Positions 29,694 to 38,423 of a stretch of 55,362 bases of DNA are shown one piece after another. The stretch spans positions 1 through 55,362 of the forward strand of contig CAIOAO010000021.1 of the NCBI GenBank assembly GCA_903855985.1, read 5' to 3'. Positions within the stretch are counted from its first letter, which is position 1. Every line of letters starts with the position of its first letter. Position numbers and translations under genes: made by a program. This DNA is from an uncultured Opitutia bacterium (GTDB lineage Bacteria; Verrucomicrobiota; Verrucomicrobiia; Opitutales; Opitutaceae). The notes beneath the pieces are model-generated. The model saw nothing but the letters and a program-made list of their open reading frames with translations. It ran no database searches and was not told the origin of the DNA.

Positions 29694-30809
29694 TCAGGCC
29701 GTCGCGCTGGCCAGCTCGAGCAGGTCGAACGCGTGGCTGACCTCACGCCGGATCTCGGCGAGGGCGGCCCGGGCGTGCTCGACCTGGACATCCTTCTTCT
29801 CGGCGTACTCGGCCTTGAGCAATTCCCAGCGATCGCCGAGGCGGTGCAGCTTGGCGCCGGAATTTTGCAGCAGCAGGCGCATGCGGCCCTGCAGCGGCGT
29901 CACCTGGCAGGCGAGACGATCGTCCAGCCGGCGGCGGGCCTCGGCCAGCTGCATCAGGAGGATTTTCTCCTCGGACACGCGGCGCAGGCCGGTGACGAGG
30001 CGGAGTTTTTCGAGGGTCCAGATGGACCACTTCGTCGGATCCCACTGCCACCATTTCACGCCGTTGCGATAGTCGTGCTGAAACTCGTGGTGATAGTTGT
30101 GATAGCCCTCGCCAAAGGTGAAGAAGGCCATGAACCAGCTGTCGCGGGCGCTGCAGCGGTCGGAGTACGGCCGGTCACCGACAGTGTGGCAGAGCGAGTT
30201 GATGAAAAACGTCATGTGCTGCACCAGGGTCACGCGGGCCACACCAGCGAGGAGTAAACCACCGAGGGCACCCGTCCAACCCGCATGCAGGTAGCCGAGA
30301 CCGGCGGGGATCAGGAAGCCGACCACCACCGCGATGGGGACGTAATAATCCATCTGGAAACGAACCAGCGGGTCCTTGCGGAGGTCGGCGACGTTGTCCT
30401 GCGGCGGCTCGGGATCGAGCTTGAAGAGGATCCAGCCCATGTGGGCGTACCAGAAACCCTGCGTGATGTCATACGGGTCATCCTTCCCGTCCACATGCTT
30501 GTGATGCCGGCGGTGGTCGGAGACCCAGGCCAGGGCGGCGTTCTCGAACGCGGCCGCACCGAACAGCAGAGTGAGCAGACGCACGGGCCAGCGCGCCTCA
30601 AAGGCCTTGTGCGCAAACAGCCGGTGATAGCCGAGCGTGATGCTCAGGCCCGTGGCGACGCAGAAAAAGGCGAACATCCCGAGCTGGAACGCATCCACAT
30701 GGAAGCGCCAGAGATACAGCGGGACCGCTGTAACGGTGGTGATGGCGGTCCCGATCAGGAACGCACTGTTGGTCCAGTTGATGCGAGCGGCAGGTAGGCG
30801 GAATGGCAC
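29694..30809 (-). CDS. Acyl-CoA/delta-9-type fatty acid desaturase
   Basis: 371 residues. Three histidine boxes are present: HRLFAH (62-67), HRRHHKH (99-105) and HNYHH (237-241). Four hydrophobic stretches match the membrane topology of the family. This diiron enzyme inserts a double bond in a fatty acyl chain. It resembles the eukaryotic-type stearoyl-CoA desaturases that occur in some bacteria. The C-terminal tail from about 275 is a long charged helical region (coiled-coil-like), longer than the minimal enzyme. It is the last gene of the minus-strand block, 72 bases after the TMTC-like trio, and could belong to the same transcript. Confidence 0.92.
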   Translation of the reverse strand: MPFRLPAARINWTNSAFLIGTAITTVTAVPLYLWRFHVDAFQLGMFAFFCVATGLSITLGYHRLFAHKAFEARWPVRLLTLLFGAAAFENAALAWVSDHRRHHKHVDGKDDPYDITQGFWYAHMGWILFKLDPEPPQDNVADLRKDPLVRFQMDYYVPIAVVVGFLIPAGLGYLHAGWTGALGGLLLAGVARVTLVQHMTFFINSLCHTVGDRPYSDRCSARDSWFMAFFTFGEGYHNYHHEFQHDYRNGVKWWQWDPTKWSIWTLEKLRLVTGLRRVSEEKILLMQLAEARRRLDDRLACQVTPLQGRMRLLLQNSGAKLHRLGDRWELLKAEYAEKKDVQVEHARAALAEIRREVSHAFDLLELASATA

Positions 30810-30881: not shown

Positions 30882-32942
30882 TTATTGCGCAGCTCCCGCG
30901 GCCCGCATCGCCTGTAGCCGCGCCAGGTTGTTGCGCGCCGGGGCATAGTCCGGCTTCAGCCGCAGGGTTTCCTCGTACTGCGCCTGCGCCTCATCAAGCC
31001 GGCCGAGCTGCCGCAGCGCGTTGCCCAGATTGTTGTGCGCCTCCGCGAAGTCCGGCCGCAGCCGCACCACCTCGGCGTACTGCTCCGCCGCGTCGGCATA
31101 GCGGTGCAGCGCGAAGAGCGCGTTGCCAAAATTGAAGTGCGCCGGGATGGACCCGGGGTCGAGCCGCACCGCCGTCGCAAAATGCCCGGCCGCCTCCTCG
31201 ACCCGGCCGGCCCGCGCCAGCACGCCACCCATTTCCCCGTGCAGCAGCGGACTGTCCGGCTGCAGCCGCAGCGCGGCCTCGTAGTGCTCCAGCGCCTCGG
31301 CCGTCCGCCCGTTCATCGCCAGGGTCCCCGCCAGCGTGTGCTGCACGTCGGCAAAATCCGGCCGCAACCGCAGCGCCGTTTCGTACTGCGCCACCGCCGC
31401 CTCCACCTGACGCTGCTGCAGCAGGGTCGTCCCGAGCACGTAATGCGCCTCGGCCTGGTCCGGCTTTAGCCGCACCGCCTGCTCCGCGGCCGCCTGGGCC
31501 TCCGCCGGCCGGTGCAATTGGACCAGCACGCCCGCGAGGCTGAAATGTGCCTCCGCCAATCCGGGCGAGAGCTGCGCTGCCGCGGCATAATGCCCGGCCG
31601 CCTCCTCAAAGCGGCCCGCGGCGGACAGCGCCGTGCCGAGATTCATCTGCGCTCGAACGTTGTCCGGCTGCGCGGCCACGGTCACCCACCAGAGCGTCAC
31701 CGCATCGCGGTAATCCCGGTTGCGCACCGCCGTGCCCACCCCGGCGGCCACCGCCAGCACCAGCCATACCGGCAGGGTGCGCGTTCCCAGCCAGCGATAG
31801 CTGCCCAGCACCCCCAGGACCAGTACCGCCGCCAGCGGGAGGTACATGCGGTGCTCGGCGATCGTCTGGGAGATGAGCGGCACAAAGCTCGAACTCGGCG
31901 CCAGGATCGCAAAGAACCAGAAAGCCGTGAACCCGACCACCGGTCTGCGCACCAGCGCGAAAAAGGTCCCCGCCACCAGCGCCAGCAGCAACACGCCTTG
32001 CGGCCAGACGTCCCCGAGTTTCGCCACGCCAACCCCGTAATCCACCACCAGCGGGTTCGGCCAGATCGAGAGCCGCAGATAGAGGATGATCGCGCGACAC
32101 TGGGTCACCGCGTAATCCCACGAGCTCATACCCAGCCCAAACCCGGCCATGCCGGCGCGCTGACCCGAGTGCGTCGCCAGCCAGAAGAGCAGCAGCCAGG
32201 TCGCCGCCAGTCCGGCGTACAACTTCCACCGCGCCTGCCACGCCGCCCGGAAAGTCCCCGCCACAAAGGTGCGGTCGTACAGCAGGACCAGCACCGGGGC
32301 CGAGACCATCAACTCCTTCGCCGCCATGCCCAGCAGGCAGGCCGCCACGGTGAAGATTTCCCAACGGCTGGATGCGGGCGACTCCACCGACCGGATAAAG
32401 CCGTAGAGCGTCAGCAGATAAAAGAGCCCCACCAGCGACTCCGAACGCTGCACCACGCAGGTCACCGACTCGGTCTGGAGCGGATGCAGCGCCCACAGCA
32501 ATGCCACGACGAACGCCAGGGGTCGCGCCGCCGCGCCGAACCGCTCCCGCAGAACTGGACGGAGCAGTGTTCGCCGCACGATGCCGAACAGCGTCAGCGC
32601 CGCCAGCGCGTGGATCAGCGTGTTCATCACGTGATAACCACGGACGTTGATTCCGCCGAGGGCGTAATTGACCGCCAGCGAGAGATTCACCAGCGGTCGG
32701 CCCACGGCGCCGGTGGCGTCACCGGGGGGCGACAGCACATCCGTCAGCGGCCACAGGTGGCGGATCGTCACGTTTTGGACGACTGATTTCAGGTCATCGA
32801 ACACGAACGGCGCGGACCAGCTGTTCGCGTAGACCGCCCACACCGCGAGCACGATCACGATCGCCGCGGTGAGGTTGCCCCAGCGCGCCAGGAATCCGGG
32901 TGTTTCGCCCGCAGCAGGTGTCCGGTTGGGTGTCGCGCTCAT
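30882..32942 (-). CDS. TMTC-like membrane protein with TPR tail, copy 1
   Basis: 686 residues. The first ~415 residues hold about ten hydrophobic segments with GT-C glycosyltransferase features: an acidic pair in FVFDDLKS in the first outer loop, then HPLQTESVTCVVQRSE, AAKELMVSAPVLVLLYDR and NRDYRDAVTLW. The same landmarks occur in eukaryotic TMTC protein O-mannosyltransferases (HP-x-HTE, CKE, R-x-W). From about 420 there are seven to eight TPR repeats (AEAHFSLA, AEAHYVLG, ADVQHTLA, IPAHFNFG, AEAHNNLG). The likely role is transfer of a sugar from a lipid carrier onto exported protein, with TPRs binding the acceptor; this is inference from the fold. It is the last of three tandem paralogues. 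Confidence 0.8.
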   Translation of the reverse strand: MSATPNRTPAAGETPGFLARWGNLTAAIVIVLAVWAVYANSWSAPFVFDDLKSVVQNVTIRHLWPLTDVLSPPGDATGAVGRPLVNLSLAVNYALGGINVRGYHVMNTLIHALAALTLFGIVRRTLLRPVLRERFGAAARPLAFVVALLWALHPLQTESVTCVVQRSESLVGLFYLLTLYGFIRSVESPASSRWEIFTVAACLLGMAAKELMVSAPVLVLLYDRTFVAGTFRAAWQARWKLYAGLAATWLLLFWLATHSGQRAGMAGFGLGMSSWDYAVTQCRAIILYLRLSIWPNPLVVDYGVGVAKLGDVWPQGVLLLALVAGTFFALVRRPVVGFTAFWFFAILAPSSSFVPLISQTIAEHRMYLPLAAVLVLGVLGSYRWLGTRTLPVWLVLAVAAGVGTAVRNRDYRDAVTLWWVTVAAQPDNVRAQMNLGTALSAAGRFEEAAGHYAAAAQLSPGLAEAHFSLAGVLVQLHRPAEAQAAAEQAVRLKPDQAEAHYVLGTTLLQQRQVEAAVAQYETALRLRPDFADVQHTLAGTLAMNGRTAEALEHYEAALRLQPDSPLLHGEMGGVLARAGRVEEAAGHFATAVRLDPGSIPAHFNFGNALFALHRYADAAEQYAEVVRLRPDFAEAHNNLGNALRQLGRLDEAQAQYEETLRLKPDYAPARNNLARLQAMRAAGAAQ

Positions 32943-32963
32943 GGTCGGTAGAATATCATTCGC

Positions 32964-35132
32964 TCAACGCGGAGCCCGGGCCGCCCGGATGGCCTCGAGG
33001 CGGGCAAGGTTGTTGCGCGCCGGCAGGTAATCCGGCTTCAGCCGCAGCGTTGCCTCGTACTGCACCTGCGCCTCGTCGAGCCGGCCGAGCTGCATCAGCG
33101 TGTTGCCGAGATTATTGTGCACCTCGGCAAAGTCGGGCCGCAACCGCACGACTTCGCCATACTGCTCGGCCGCCTCGGCAAATCGCCGCAGGGCGAAGAG
33201 GGCATTGCCGTAATTGAAGTGCGCCGGGATGGAATCGGGATCGAGCCGGGCCGCCGCCTCAAAATGTCCGGCCGCCTCCTCCACCCGCCCGAGCCGGCCG
33301 AGCGCGGCCCCAAGGGCGGTCTGCGCCTCGGCCGAGTCCGGCTTGAGCTGCACCACCGCCGCATAATGCGGCACGGCATCCGCCCAGCGCTGCTGTGCCG
33401 CCAGCACATTTCCGAAGCCGGCCTGCAGCCCGGGATTGCCCGGTGCCTGGCGCACGGCCTGCTCGAACTGCTCCAGCGCCTCGGGGAGGCGGCCCGCGGA
33501 CGCCAGGGTTTCCGCGTACATCTGCCGCGCCTCCACGTAATCCGGCCGGATCTTGAGCGTGGTCTCGAAATGCTCCAGCGCCTCTGCGGTCCGATTCAGC
33601 CGCAACAGCACGCCGGCGAGGACGAAATGCGCCTCGAAATACGGCGGACGCAGCCGCACCGCCGCCTCAAGATGTTCCAGCGCCTCCGCCGGCCGGTACG
33701 CGCGGAAGAGGAAATTACCCAGGTTGTAGCGCGGCTCGGCATAGTCCGGGTTGAGCCGCACCGCCTCGGCCAGGTGGACGAGGGCCTCGTCATTCCGGCC
33801 CGCCAGCATGAGCGCGCAGCCGAGGCTCGATTGCGCCCGGGCGTTCTCCGGCAGCACCGTCACGGTGACGGTCCAGAGCTTGACGTTGGTCTCATAGTCC
33901 CGGTTGCGGGCCACGGTGAGCGCCCCCGCAGCCACGGCCAGGGCCAACCCCGCCGGCAGCGTGAAGCGTCCCACCCAGCGATACGCCCCGAGCACCACCA
34001 GCGCGATCACCGCCGCCAGTGGCAGGTACATCCGGTGCTCGGCCATGGTCTGGGTGATGAGCGGCACGATGCTCGAGCTCGGCGCCAGGATCGCAAAAAA
34101 AGCAAAGCCCAGGAACCCGGCCGCCTGCCGGCGGCGCAGTGCGATGAAAGTGCCCACGGCGAGCAGCACCAACAGGCCGGCCTGCAGCCAGACGTCCGCC
34201 AGGCTGCGCACCACCGTCGTGCCGTAGTCCACGACGAGCGGGCTCGGCCAGAACACGAGCCCCAGGTACATCACGATCGCACGGCACGAGGTCAGCAGAT
34301 ACTCCCACGAACTCACGCCGCCACCCAGGCTCCCGCCGCGTTGGTGCGAACCGGCCACGAGGTACGCGAGCAGCAGCCAGGTCGCCGCCAGGCCTGCATA
34401 CAGTTTTCCGCGCACCTGCCACGCCGCCCGGAAGGTGCCGGCCACGAACATACGGTCATACAGCAGCACCAGCACGGGCGCCGTCACCATGACTTCCTTC
34501 GTCGCCATGCCGAACAGGCAGACGGTCACGGTGAAAATCTCCCAGCGTCGCGAGGCAGGCGATTCCACCGCGCGGATGAATCCGTAGAGTGTCAGCAGGT
34601 AAAACAATCCCATCAGGGACTCCGAGCGCTGGATGACAAACGTCACCGATTCGGTCAGCAACGGGTGCACCGCCCAGAGCAGCGCCACCGTCAGCGCCAG
34701 CGTCAGCGCCGCCGCCCCGTATTTTTCCCGCAGCGCCGGCCGTAGCAGTGTGCGCCGCACAATCCCGAACAGCACCAGCGCCGCCAGCGCGTGAAACAGC
34801 GTGTTGGCCAAGTGGTAGCCCGTGACGTTGTAGCCCCCGAGGGCGTAATTGATCGCCAGCGAGAGGCTCACCATTGGCCGGCCCGTCGCACCCGTCGCAA
34901 ACATCGGCGAGGACAGCACGTCGCCCAGCCGGCTGAGGTGCCGGATGGTCGGGTTCTGCGTGATCGCCATGAAATCATCGAAGACGAACGGCGTGAACCA
35001 GCTGTTCGCATAGACCCCCCAGACCGCGAGCACGATGACCGCCCCGGCCAGGACAACACCCCGGCGCGCGGTCGGCGCGGAGGGGTTGGGCGGAGTCAAC
35101 GAGGACCCGGGAATCGCGCGCGGCTTGGCCAT
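32964..35132 (-). CDS. TMTC-like membrane protein with TPR tail, copy 2
   Basis: 722 residues, the longest of the three. The membrane half has FVFDDFMAITQNPTIRHLS, HPLLTESVTFVIQRSE, ATKEVMVTAPVLVLLYDR and NRDYETNVKLW. The tail holds about eight to nine TPRs (AEPRYNLG, FEAHFVLA, VEARQMYA, AEAQTALG, IPAHFNYG, AEVHNNLG). It is nearly colinear with copy 1 in the membrane part and in the last repeats but has extra repeats between. The gaps are 21 bases to copy 1 and 50 bases to copy 3, so the three are likely cotranscribed. Copy 2 is the most divergent near the first loop (MAITQ in place of KSVVQ). Confidence 0.8.
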   Translation of the reverse strand: MAKPRAIPGSSLTPPNPSAPTARRGVVLAGAVIVLAVWGVYANSWFTPFVFDDFMAITQNPTIRHLSRLGDVLSSPMFATGATGRPMVSLSLAINYALGGYNVTGYHLANTLFHALAALVLFGIVRRTLLRPALREKYGAAALTLALTVALLWAVHPLLTESVTFVIQRSESLMGLFYLLTLYGFIRAVESPASRRWEIFTVTVCLFGMATKEVMVTAPVLVLLYDRMFVAGTFRAAWQVRGKLYAGLAATWLLLAYLVAGSHQRGGSLGGGVSSWEYLLTSCRAIVMYLGLVFWPSPLVVDYGTTVVRSLADVWLQAGLLVLLAVGTFIALRRRQAAGFLGFAFFAILAPSSSIVPLITQTMAEHRMYLPLAAVIALVVLGAYRWVGRFTLPAGLALAVAAGALTVARNRDYETNVKLWTVTVTVLPENARAQSSLGCALMLAGRNDEALVHLAEAVRLNPDYAEPRYNLGNFLFRAYRPAEALEHLEAAVRLRPPYFEAHFVLAGVLLRLNRTAEALEHFETTLKIRPDYVEARQMYAETLASAGRLPEALEQFEQAVRQAPGNPGLQAGFGNVLAAQQRWADAVPHYAAVVQLKPDSAEAQTALGAALGRLGRVEEAAGHFEAAARLDPDSIPAHFNYGNALFALRRFAEAAEQYGEVVRLRPDFAEVHNNLGNTLMQLGRLDEAQVQYEATLRLKPDYLPARNNLARLEAIRAARAPR

Positions 35133-35182
35133 GGATGATTGCCGTCAGCGTTGGCGGACGCCCTCAGGCAGGCAAGGCACAC

Positions 35183-37054
35183 TTAATGACCGGCGGCCGG
35201 CGGCGGGCGGGCCGCCAGGCGGTGCAGATTATCCCGGGCCTGCGCGTAGCCCGGCCACTGCCGCAGCGCCATCTCGAACTCGTCCCGCGCCTCGTCGAAC
35301 CGGCCCAGCTGGACGAAGGCCTCGCCGAGGTCGTTGTGGGCCCGGGCGAATTTCGGCTGGAGCCGCAGGGTCGCCAGGTAGTGCTGCGCCGCTTCCGGCC
35401 AGCGCCGCAGCTGCGCCAGTGCCGTGGCGAGGTTGTAATGTCCCGGCAGCGAACCGGGATCGATCCGCACCGCCGCCTGCAGTTGAACCACCGCATCCTC
35501 GAGCCGGTCCACCTGGGCCAGTGTGCTGCCGAGGGCGATGCGGGCATCAACGGAATCCGGCTTGAGCCGCACCGCCGCCTCGCACTGGGGCAGCGCCTCC
35601 ACGGGCCGGCCCAGCTCGAGCAGCACGTTGCCCAGGTTGCACCGGGCGGCGTCATCGTCCGGGTCGTGCGCCACCACGAACGCAAAATGCCCGCGCGCTT
35701 CCTCCAGCCGCCGGGCCTCCGCCAGCGCCGTGCCCAGGTTCATGTGCACCCGCAAATTGTCGGGCTGTTGCGCCACCGTCACACTCCAGAGCGTGATCGC
35801 ATCGCGGTAATCCTGGTTGCGCACCACCGTGAGCGCGCCCGCCCCCGCGGCCAGCGCCAGCCACACCGGCAGCGTGCGCACCCCCAGCCAGCGATAACCG
35901 CTGAGTACCACCGCGCCGACCACCGCCGCCAGTGGCAGGTACATCCGGTGTTCGGCCATGGTCTGGGACGTCAGCGGCACAAAACTCGAACTGGGAGCCA
36001 GGATCGCAAAAAACCAGAACCCGAGAAACCCCAGCACCGGCCGCCGAACCAGCGCCACGCCTGTGCCCGCGACCAGCGCGAGCAGGAGCAGTGCCTGCGG
36101 CCAGACGTCTCCTGCGGATGAGACGACGCCGGTGCCGTAGTCGACGACCAGCGGACTCGGCCAAAACGCGAGGCGCAGGTAGAGGATGATCGCCCGGCAT
36201 TGCGTCAGCGCATACTCCCACGCGCTCACCCCCAGGCCGAAGCCTGCGACCCCGCCGCGCTGTCCGTTCTGCAGGCTCAGCCAAGCCAGCAGCAACCAGG
36301 TGCCCGCCAGCCAAAGGTAAAATGACCGGCGTTGCTGCCAGGCGGCGCGAAACGTTCCGGCCACAAACGTGCGGTCGTAGAGCAGCACCAGCAGGGGTGC
36401 CGAGACCATCACTTCCTTCGTCGCCATGCCGAGCAGGCACATGACGACGGCGAAGCTCTGCCAGCGTCGCTGCGCAGGCGCCTCCACCGCGCGAATGAAG
36501 CCATACAGCGTGAGCAGGTAAAACAGCCCCATCAGCGACTCCGAGCGTTGGACCACGCAGGTGACTGACTCCGTCTGCAACGGATGCAGCGCCCAGAGCA
36601 GCGCCACCCCGAGTGCGAGGGGCACGGCCGCGGACCCAAACCGCTCCCGCAGCAAGGGACGTCGCAGCGTCCGCCGCACGATGCCGAACAGCGCCAGCGC
36701 CGCCAGCGCGTGAATCAGCGTGTTCATCACGTGATATCCGCGCCCATCGAGGCCACCGAGGGCGTAGTTGAGGGCGAGGCTGAGGTTCACCACGGGACGC
36801 CCGCCCGCCCCGGTCGCGTGGTTCGGCGGTGCCAGCACATCCGTCAGCGGCCACAGGTGGCGGATTGTCGGGTTTTGAATGACCGACTTCAGGTCATCGA
36901 ACACGAACGGCGCCGAAAAACTGTTCGCATACGCCGCCCACACCGTGAGCACGATCACCGCCACGGGCAGCCATCCACCCCCGCGGGACAGCAGCGAGGA
37001 AAACGGGCCCTCCTGGCCGGTGGCGGGCTCGGGCGCTGGGACCACTTTCGGCAT
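35183..37054 (-). CDS. TMTC-like membrane protein with TPR tail, copy 3
   Basis: 623 residues, the shortest. The membrane half has FVFDDLKSVIQNPTIRHLW, HPLQTESVTCVVQRSE, ATKEVMVSAPLLVLLYDR and NQDYRDAITLW. The tail has about five to six TPRs (NLRVHMNLG, DAARCNLG, VDARIALG, LPGHYNLA, ARAHNDLG). It follows thrC by only 10 bases, so the trio may be read from the amino-acid operon. The ATG at 37054 starts a short cytoplasmic stretch before the first helix. Comparing the three tails shows TPR number changing while the membrane half is kept, as expected after duplication with repeat gain and loss. Confidence 0.8.
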   Translation of the reverse strand: MPKVVPAPEPATGQEGPFSSLLSRGGGWLPVAVIVLTVWAAYANSFSAPFVFDDLKSVIQNPTIRHLWPLTDVLAPPNHATGAGGRPVVNLSLALNYALGGLDGRGYHVMNTLIHALAALALFGIVRRTLRRPLLRERFGSAAVPLALGVALLWALHPLQTESVTCVVQRSESLMGLFYLLTLYGFIRAVEAPAQRRWQSFAVVMCLLGMATKEVMVSAPLLVLLYDRTFVAGTFRAAWQQRRSFYLWLAGTWLLLAWLSLQNGQRGGVAGFGLGVSAWEYALTQCRAIILYLRLAFWPSPLVVDYGTGVVSSAGDVWPQALLLLALVAGTGVALVRRPVLGFLGFWFFAILAPSSSFVPLTSQTMAEHRMYLPLAAVVGAVVLSGYRWLGVRTLPVWLALAAGAGALTVVRNQDYRDAITLWSVTVAQQPDNLRVHMNLGTALAEARRLEEARGHFAFVVAHDPDDDAARCNLGNVLLELGRPVEALPQCEAAVRLKPDSVDARIALGSTLAQVDRLEDAVVQLQAAVRIDPGSLPGHYNLATALAQLRRWPEAAQHYLATLRLQPKFARAHNDLGEAFVQLGRFDEARDEFEMALRQWPGYAQARDNLHRLAARPPPAAGH

Positions 37055-37064
37055 AACCTCCGGC

Positions 37065-38423
37065 TCAGACGGCGTGCTGCGCGATGAATCGCATGATCGC
37101 CGCCGGGTCGGCCCGCAGGCGGTGCTTGATCACCGGCCGGACCTTCAGGGCATCCAGCGAGGGGTCCGTCGGCTCGAGGCCGATCGCCGCGCGGATGGTA
37201 TCCGGGAATTTCGCCGGGCTCGCCGTCGCCAGCACCACGCTCACCCGGCCGGGTGAAAGCGCCTGGAACCCGCACGCCGTGTGCGGATCGACGATGTAGC
37301 CGAGCTCGCGGTGAACCCGGCGGATAATGCCGGGGATCTCCGCGTCGGTGCAGCGCGAGGCCGTGAAACCGCCCCGGTCCCACCCTTCCACCCGGCAGCG
37401 GCCCGTGGCCTTGAACTCGTTCATCAGCGCAAGCAACCGCTCCGGGTCGCGGCCCACGCGGTAGTACAGGAAACGCTCAAAGTTCGAGGCAACCTGGATG
37501 TCCATCGAGGGCGCGAGGCTCGGAGCGACGGCGCCGGCGCGGTATTCCCCGGTGGTGAAAAACCGGTAGAGGATGTCGTTCTGGTTGGTCGCCACCTTGA
37601 AGCCGGGGATCGGCACGCCCATCTGCTGGAGCAGCCACCCGGCGAGCACGTTGCCAAAATTGCCCGTCGGCACGACAAACTCGACACGGCTCCGCTCGCT
37701 CTCGGGCAGTCTCAGCCACGCGTAAAGATAGTACACGCACTGCGCGAGCACCCGGGCCAGGTTGATGGAGTTGACCGCCGAGAGCCGGTGGCCGGTGCGG
37801 AAGGCCTGGTTGGAAAAAATCACCTTCAGCGCCGCCTGCGCGTCGTCAAACGTGCCGTCCAGCGCGAGCGCGAACACGTTCGCGGCCCCCGTGCAGGTCA
37901 TCTGCCGCTCCTGCAGCGGCGACACCCGGCCGTCGGGATAGAGGATGAAGATCGCGGTGCCGGGCTTGCCCAGCAGCCCATGGATCGCCGCTGCGCCCGT
38001 GTCGCCGGAGGTCGCGCCCAGGACATTGATCGTCTCCCCGCGCACCGCGCACTGGTGCTCGTAGAGGTTGCCCAGGAGCTGGAGCGCAAAGTCCTTGAAC
38101 GCGAGCGTGGGCCCGTGGAACAGCTCGAGCACGTACAGGTCAGGCCCGAGCTTTTTCAGCGGCGCGATCTCGGGCGACGCGAAAGTCGTGTAGGATTTCG
38201 CCACGATCATCCGCAGCGTCGTGAGGGGAATATCCGTCGCGAACGCCCGCATGAACTCAAAGCAGAGGTCGGCGTAACCCAGTTTCGCGAGCCGCGGCAG
38301 GTCGGCCGAAAAATCGGGCAGCGCCACCGGCAAAAACAGCCCCCCGTCCGGCGCCAGCCCCGTCGCCACCGCCTCGGAAAAGCCGAGCGCCGGCGTCTGG
38401 CCGCGGGTGGAGAGGAAATTCAT
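37065..38423 (-). CDS. thrC: Threonine synthase
   Basis: 452 residues, the long proteobacterial-type enzyme. It starts MNFLSTRG and has the PLP lysine in PTLAFKDFALQ, the phosphate loop GATSGDTGAAA, the SINLARVLAQ region and the PTGNFGN motif. It makes threonine from O-phosphohomoserine. It lies 68 bases after lysC in the order hom-lysC-thrC. No thrB (homoserine kinase) is in the block, so the phosphorylated substrate must come from a gene elsewhere. Confidence 0.96.
   Translation of the reverse strand: MNFLSTRGQTPALGFSEAVATGLAPDGGLFLPVALPDFSADLPRLAKLGYADLCFEFMRAFATDIPLTTLRMIVAKSYTTFASPEIAPLKKLGPDLYVLELFHGPTLAFKDFALQLLGNLYEHQCAVRGETINVLGATSGDTGAAAIHGLLGKPGTAIFILYPDGRVSPLQERQMTCTGAANVFALALDGTFDDAQAALKVIFSNQAFRTGHRLSAVNSINLARVLAQCVYYLYAWLRLPESERSRVEFVVPTGNFGNVLAGWLLQQMGVPIPGFKVATNQNDILYRFFTTGEYRAGAVAPSLAPSMDIQVASNFERFLYYRVGRDPERLLALMNEFKATGRCRVEGWDRGGFTASRCTDAEIPGIIRRVHRELGYIVDPHTACGFQALSPGRVSVVLATASPAKFPDTIRAAIGLEPTDPSLDALKVRPVIKHRLRADPAAIMRFIAQHAV

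Follow-up and report, generated by a model that had tools for sequence, protein, structure and literature searches.

Three tandem TMTC-like GT-C membrane proteins with variable TPR tails, candidate protein glycosyltransferases of an uncultured Opitutia bacterium

The window analyzed in this study is a stretch of 55,362 nucleotides from an uncultured Opitutia bacterium (assembly GCA_903855985.1, contig CAIOAO010000021.1; G000:C21 in our set), part of a genome of 2.9 Mb. It carries three adjacent genes (the trio), each encoding a multi-pass membrane half followed by a tail of tetratricopeptide repeats (TPRs). We think it reasonably probable that the products are inner-membrane GT-C glycosyltransferases of the TMTC type, which would use a polyprenyl-phosphate sugar to modify exported proteins recruited by the TPRs in a copy-specific manner, and that the trio arose by tandem duplication. 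The genes, and the parts of the third one, are:

35183 to 37054, minus strand: first trio gene, 623 aa, GT-C membrane half and 5 TPRs (intact open reading frame)
32964 to 35132, minus strand: second trio gene, 722 aa, GT-C membrane half and 8 TPRs (intact open reading frame)
30882 to 32942, minus strand: third trio gene, 686 aa, GT-C membrane half, 7 TPRs and a capping helix (modelled)
31659 to 32942, minus strand: membrane half of the third gene, 428 residues, folded alone, GT-C fold
30882 to 31658, minus strand: TPR tail of the third gene, from domain matches and the model

The initial annotation had described a tandem set with a common membrane half of about 430 residues and a differing number of TPRs, and this description holds. 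All three open reading frames are intact, and the membrane halves are 68–75% identical (69.6, 75.4, and 68.0% pairwise); the tails are 47–60% identical. Tail lengths are 211, 313, and 279 aa, and the differences of 34 and 68 residues amount to whole TPRs. Seven TPR helix pairs and a capping helix are present in the model of the 686-aa protein; based on these pairs and the tail lengths, the TPR counts are 5, 8, and 7 in transcription order, within the earlier estimates of about 5–6, 8–9, and 7–8. Of the landmarks listed at that stage, FDD, HPxxTESV, and (A/T)KE are found in all three proteins; NRDY is found in two and reads NQDY in the 623-aa protein. Intergenic gaps within the trio are 50 and 21 bases. 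All three genes recur in a second species, unchanged in length and 91–94% identical, and the arrangement is therefore neither chance nor an assembly artefact. The nearest named loci outside the bacterium's own genome (93–94% identity) belong to Verrucomicrobia/Opitutae metagenome assemblies, which suggests that the bacterium is one of the Opitutaceae (Verrucomicrobiota) of freshwater type.

A fold search with the whole protein returned a list filled by TPR proteins, with the TPR domain of O-GlcNAc transferase and designed TPRs at its head; the membrane half was therefore folded alone. Together with 97 homologous halves, that of the third protein yielded a confident model (pLDDT 94.4, pTM 0.93) with 11 membrane helices, counted by eye in its helix list, and long loops at residues 44–99 and 259–312. 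The 1000 PDB chains ranked highest by Foldseek were re-scored by Z. Every one of the 50 listed rows is a GT-C enzyme, a complex that includes such an enzyme, or PIG-U (Z 10.8–20.3, 249–344 residues), including yeast oligosaccharyltransferase (20.3), Pmt4 and Pmt1-Pmt2 (19.8), ArnT (19.2), and PglB (18.3). The same number of chains, 56, was found at Z ≥ 5 and at Z ≥ 8, leaving a clear gap above the remainder. The GT-C fold proposed for the membrane half in the initial annotation is thus what the model matches.

Seven motifs have been catalogued in TMTC proteins, and residues matching E210 and D301 of the third protein have been modelled as metal ligands (PMC7801869; this paper, PMC11292533, and PMC7591256 are cited for the parts available to us). 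The relevant codons of the third gene are:

32793 to 32798, minus strand: D49-D50, the acidic pair in the first outer loop, TMTC motif M1
32313 to 32318, minus strand: K209-E210, TMTC motif M4, with E a predicted metal ligand
32037 to 32042, minus strand: D301-Y302, matching TMTC motif M5 (DW), with D a predicted metal ligand
31842 to 31856, minus strand: E363-H364-R365-M366-Y367; TMTC motif M7 is ERxxY, and the arginine here comes one residue later

Most of the TMTC active-site motifs are kept in 45–47 of 47 close relatives. The acidic pair, singled out beforehand as decisive, is present in all 47 (M1, DD), as are KE (M4) and Y302 of M5; D301 occurs in 45, with E in the other two. M3 reads R-x-E throughout (R-x-D in TMTCs). 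Only RP is kept of M2 (SHKSYRP), in 47/47, and SHKS is absent; the second proline of M6 (PxxP), P349, is likewise kept in 47/47, the first being replaced by I, L, or V. M7 follows the pattern E-H-R-x-Y, with E363 in 47 and Y367 in 45. The lysine plus arginine content is 24.3% in predicted cytoplasmic loops vs. 6.6% outside, on an inside/outside assignment made by hand on the model, and the bias has the same direction in 47/47. This positive-inside bias therefore places the active-site loops and the TPRs in the periplasm, in line with the export-side orientation proposed earlier. The conserved acidic, lysine, and arginine residues lie in stretches placed outside the cytoplasm.

A number of results weigh against assignment of the trio to enzymes of the TMTC type. 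None of the Pfam GT-C/TMTC models matched the three proteins, whole (E ≤ 1) or as membrane halves (E ≤ 10); this includes PF08409 (TMTC_DUF1736) and PF02366/PF13231 (PMT/PMT_2). The initial annotation had named the absence of a GT-C/TMTC hidden Markov model hit as a refutation; the trio does lack one, although some homologues have it and the fold is clear. A profile of the membrane halves found no chain among PDB sequences. The arginine of M7 is displaced by one residue (R365) in 47/47 close relatives. The trio adjoins housekeeping genes, not glycan genes. Foldseek alone gave one match at E ≤ 0.001, to PIG-U (5.4e-4), with TM-scores of about 0.4–0.5 against GT-C enzymes. PIG-U is a GT-C-fold subunit that has been termed non-enzymatic (PMC7801869), so the fold is no proof of catalysis. 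PIG-U as the best Foldseek match and the displaced arginine would both fit a non-catalytic, PIG-U-like GT-C-fold membrane protein that serves as a TPR scaffold; we regard this as highly improbable, given that DD, K209, E210, and R365 are invariant in 47/47 and that the two predicted metal ligands co-vary.

Homologous sequences are closer to the known models. The set of 99 was obtained from 121 by removing duplicates (six of them named), frames with open ends, and hits without a tail. Among the 97 homologous membrane halves, 29 matched PMT_2 (best 1.5e-10), 7 TMTC_DUF1736 (best 5.3e-6), and 4 PMT; the corresponding numbers for the 47 closest halves are 10 (best 1.2e-8), 3 (best 0.0024, weak), and 2 (best 0.0041). 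PF08409 has matches in 5 of 100 genomes of the bacterium's family, above the cut-off in 3. One frame of 806 aa (G034:C124) is both above the PF08409 cut-off and a BLAST relative of a window protein (E 1e-11). The ER..Y form of M7 is retained in some distant relatives (e.g., L068, L074, L080). With NCBIfam, TPR-type models alone were among the matches listed for the trio, all but one below the cut-off. Because the trio lacks a PF08409 match and departs from motif M7, we class it among TMTC-like GT-C variants instead of TMTC members.

Fifty more distant bacterial sequences were compared at the same positions. D49 is kept in 46, D50 in 48, K209 in 49, E210 in 13, and D301 in 8. Of the 50 sequences, 8 have both predicted metal ligands, 5 have E210 without D301, none has D301 without E210, and 37 lack the two (Fisher 2.4e-6, treating related sequences as independent). 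Such strict linkage is independent support for a joint role of the two residues, and the pattern suggests putative metal-type and non-metal-type subfamilies. By eye, the distant sequences fall into KE/D-Y/ER-or-EHR, KP/DRYTY, and KS-or-KT/DHFQY types, and every motif type is represented in the bacterium's own genome (by the trio, L005, and L006, respectively). L005 (contig 82) and L006 (contig 60) are distant GT-C/TPR relatives with DRYSY and DHFQY.

A tree of 118 membrane halves, used for dating the trio and for the slot analysis below, was computed quickly (FastTree, midpoint root), and its deep branches are poorly supported. All three trio genes belong to a single 13-member clade (support 1.00). 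Within the clade are three orthologue subclades, one per trio gene across three species, each with support 1.00, and the clade adds members from two further species; the tandem duplication within the genus is therefore old. The ratio of nonsynonymous to synonymous substitution rates (dN/dS) between the orthologues of G000 and G003, in which all three lengths are identical, is 0.17–0.18 for the membrane halves and 0.14–0.19 for the TPR tails. Between paralogues it is 0.21–0.34 for the membrane halves and 0.42–0.54 for the tails, the latter distances possibly inflated because tails with differing repeat numbers align imperfectly, which also counts against our interpretation. Tails that diverged between copies and were kept within each copy are as expected if each copy has its own ligand. 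The TPR number fixed per copy is apparently new.

In the mechanism that we favour, the GT-C membrane half would draw its sugar from a polyprenyl-phosphate carrier on the periplasmic side of the membrane and pass it to exported proteins recruited by the C-terminal TPR superhelix. The TPR tails, differing in number between copies and constant within a copy, would set the proteins served by each copy. An ancestor shared by several species of the genus would have produced the trio through tandem duplication, with no copy lost since then. Sequence comparison and modelling give good support to the prediction of TMTC-like GT-C enzymes that depend on a polyprenyl-phosphate sugar and have their TPR tail in the periplasm, and the acceptor is likely a protein. 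Recruitment of acceptors by TPRs has been proposed for TMTC1-4 (PMC11292533), and FlmG binds flagellins via its TPR domain in two-hybrid assays (PMC7591256). Fold, motifs, and topology are drawn from comparison; what we infer beyond them is the donor, the acceptor, the linkage, and the sugar. Candidate donor synthases in the bacterium's own genome are a GT2 protein of 229 aa, with AglJ as its best NCBIfam match (122 bits, cut-off 325), and a second GT2 domain, both below curated cut-offs. A dedicated donor synthase beside the family genes was considered and dropped, as there is one case only, a GT2 gene (L133:7416-8198) between two family genes. This GT2 resembles polyprenyl-phosphate hexose synthases and is a possible donor supplier.

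The same GT-C chemistry could also act on a glycan or lipid acceptor (exopolysaccharide, O-antigen, or a lipid A-like carrier), with the TPRs assembling an envelope complex. GT-C enzymes take many acceptors, and the fold matches include ArnT (Z 19.2), whose acceptor is lipid A; rhamnogalacturonan lyase, GH31, and alpha-L-rhamnosidase domains were each found in one large neighbour of family genes. Polysaccharide-degrading genes are, however, also present in control regions, and such neighbours therefore say little. The neighbours in the window are non-glycan genes, and long TPR tails that are specific to each copy and subject to purifying selection suit protein ligands better. We consider a glycan or lipid acceptor doubtful.

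The family extends well beyond the trio. With the third membrane half as the query (E ≤ 1e-10), matches were obtained in 34 of 57 related genomes, comprising 31 of 37 from the bacterium's family and 3 of 20 from elsewhere in the order. A single genome had as many as 21 matches; a few genes were split and gave two matches each. The bacterium's own genome holds the trio, a fourth copy on contig 10 (61%), and two more distant copies (about 30%). In a scan of named genomes, the best 80 of 425 loci are from Verrucomicrobiota, Desulfobacterota, Nitrospirae, Planctomycetota, Acidobacteria, and others, some of these 80 matching in the TPRs only.

In the window, the trio is flanked by:

37065 to 38423, minus strand: threonine synthase, the upstream neighbour, 10 bases before the first trio gene
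29694 to 30809, minus strand: fatty acid desaturase, the downstream neighbour, 72 bases past the trio

Aspartate kinase precedes threonine synthase, and aspartate kinase, threonine synthase, the trio, and the desaturase are on one strand. Threonine synthase was considered as a functional partner, being co-directional and conserved in related genomes; with position as the sole argument, it was set aside as a slot coincidence. A functional link to threonine synthase is probably absent, and we treat both this gene and the desaturase as context.

Neighbourhoods were compared across 100 regions with family genes and 20 control stretches of 20 kb, the latter hand-picked at round coordinates in five genomes (G017, G033, G024, G031, G009). 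Gene calls were home-made; on calling, 3 of the 100 regions (L158, L189, L217) were without a family gene, and the places G018:C1, G025:C309, G055:C1, G003:C43, and G052:C6 lie outside the fetched set. In total, 92 runs of close family genes gave 176 flanking genes, against 292 control genes. Of the 53 flanking genes of at least 600 aa, 51 were scanned with Pfam; two over size were left out, one kinase-like and one GT-C/TPR-like by eye. Genes for TonB-dependent receptors are about ninefold enriched beside family genes. The Plug domain was found in 24/176 flanking vs. 5/292 control genes (Fisher 3.6e-7). Among large genes, 24 of the 51 flanking ones have Plug and 6, perhaps in part the same genes, the OMP_b-brl_4 barrel, and 5 of 48 controls have Plug. 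Two receptor profiles built here classed 25/176 flanking and 4/292 control genes as TonB-receptor-like. Of these 25, 17 are upstream and co-directional, 5 convergent, 2 downstream on the same strand, and 1 divergent.

One reading of this enrichment is that some family members glycosylate the neighbouring outer-membrane TonB-dependent receptor, the receptor and enzyme genes forming a unit. The two enrichment counts and the upstream, same-strand position of 17/25 receptors are consistent with it, as is one receptor group searched in 14 genomes, with nine of its top 11 matches (E ≤ 7.3e-223) adjoining a family gene, spread over 8 genomes; these 14 genomes were chosen partly because the receptor–enzyme pair occurs there. 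The trio itself is without a receptor neighbour. The 29 flanking receptors form 12 groups at 40% identity, and the loci are therefore not independent; the controls are hand-picked as well. Receptor–enzyme co-evolution gave a Mantel r of 0.36 (p 0.008, n = 11), but the partner enzymes of one receptor group are unclustered in the tree (62/500 random draws as tight). The proposal that copy number tracks TonB-receptor number was rejected, since over 57 genomes rho fell from 0.35 (p 0.008) to 0.03 after genome size; in the 37 genomes of the bacterium's family, the partial rho between copy number and Plug number is -0.08, with Plug counts of about 67 being lower bounds. A PEP-CTERM/exosortase link was rejected as well (57 genomes, rho 0.16, p 0.23; 0.01 after genome size).

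An exclusive pairing with an Oar-like protein (PF25183) was perfect in 8 genomes selected for the pairing and failed across the 57, which weakens the proposal without discarding it. The protein occurs there in 28 places (one a fragment), 3 of them in genomes without a family match; just 8 of the other 25 are near a family gene (7 immediately adjacent, and one in G031 with one gene between). The fourth close paralogue of the bacterium's own genome (L136:9104-12193, contig 10) adjoins such an Oar-like outer-membrane protein (PF25183 and CarboxypepD_reg), and this neighbourhood was found again in other genomes. On balance, receptor and enzyme genes acting as a unit seem unlikely to us.

The receptors and other recurrent neighbours could simply mark chromosomal slots for gain and exchange of family genes, with no functional link. 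In the regions L120-L219, recurrent slots were found at threonine synthase–desaturase, at lipoyl synthase, at ribonucleotide reductase, and at a receptor group. The clade that fills a slot varies, as though paralogues took one another's place at a fixed position. The threonine synthase–desaturase slot is filled in seven genomes, with other clades in G004 and G008 and, in part, in G009 and G011. The same slots hold occupants from different parts of the tree, with 6 tree changes for 7 genes at lipoyl synthase (shuffled mean 6.9) and 14 for 19 at the receptor (shuffled 18.0). Two slots are more tightly inherited, with 4 changes for 16 genes at threonine synthase and 1 for 4 at another, and with deep branches poorly supported, replacement may be overstated. 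The receptor strand bias (17/25 upstream and co-directional, naive binomial 7.4e-6) also speaks against slots without function. We find this explanation plausible without calling it probable.

A broader proposal, a multi-copy TMTC-type glycosylation system for envelope proteins of which a subset acts on neighbouring TonB-dependent receptors, appears to us distinctly unlikely. Domains of the CarboxypepD_reg types occur in 9 and 6 of the 51 scanned flanking proteins. The carboxypeptidase regulatory domain is presumably immunoglobulin-like (Ig-like), and by analogy this domain could be the acceptor at the start of some receptors. Human TMTCs target Ig-like EC domains (PMC11292533). A membrane protein of 828–834 aa also recurs next to family genes (L127:1665-4151, L130:10005-12509, L187:7438-9939). 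The L127 copy matched nothing in Pfam (E ≤ 0.001); on visual inspection, we take this protein to resemble STT3-type GT-C enzymes.

The closest known systems are the eukaryotic TMTC1-4 (CAZy GT105), cadherin O-mannosyltransferases with the same 11-helix GT-C half followed by C-terminal TPRs on the outer side, with DD, RP, R-x-acid, KE, D-aromatic, and E...Y in the same order, and with a TPR number that, as in the trio, varies between paralogues. The trio differs in being bacterial, in having no PF08409 match, in having the M7 arginine one residue later, and in lacking the SHKS part of M2 and the leading proline of M6. PMT/POMT (GT39) and PMT_2 proteins share the GT-C fold (Z 19.8 for Pmt1-Pmt2 and Pmt4), and 29/97 homologues match PMT_2; the trio has a TPR tail in place of their MIR domain. 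ArnT (PDB 5ezm/5f15) shares the fold over 344 aligned residues (Z 19.2) and is bacterial with an undecaprenyl-phosphate donor, but its acceptor is lipid A and it has no TPRs. FlmG of Caulobacter also glycosylates protein in a bacterium and binds its acceptor through a TPR domain (PMC7591256); unlike the trio, it is cytoplasmic and has a GT-B fold. The initial annotation had treated the occurrence in a bacterium as unexpected, which was too strong: essentially full-length TMTC homologues (transferase and TPRs) occur in many prokaryotes (PMC7801869), and we saw them in several phyla. Because of these full-length homologues, the bacterial architecture counts as already known. The example given (AMJ42_05695, Deltaproteobacteria) has the same GT-C half and TPRs; the available part of PMC7801869 holds this one prokaryotic example, with no class structure, expansion, slots, or neighbours.

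Apparently new are the expansion of the family, the co-occurrence of E210 and D301, the shifted M7 arginine, and the enrichment of TonB-receptor neighbours. No report of such a family in Verrucomicrobiota was found among the top-ranked results of the literature searched, mostly outside subscription papers. TMTC catalysis rests chiefly on indirect data and modelling (PMC7801869). With as many as 21 matches in one genome, members with and without the predicted metal ligands, and variable TPRs, the bacterial family offers small and perhaps tractable relatives for testing the choice of donor, metal, and acceptor. If the acceptors are exported proteins, the family would add a protein-glycosylation system to a phylum for which that literature holds no such report.

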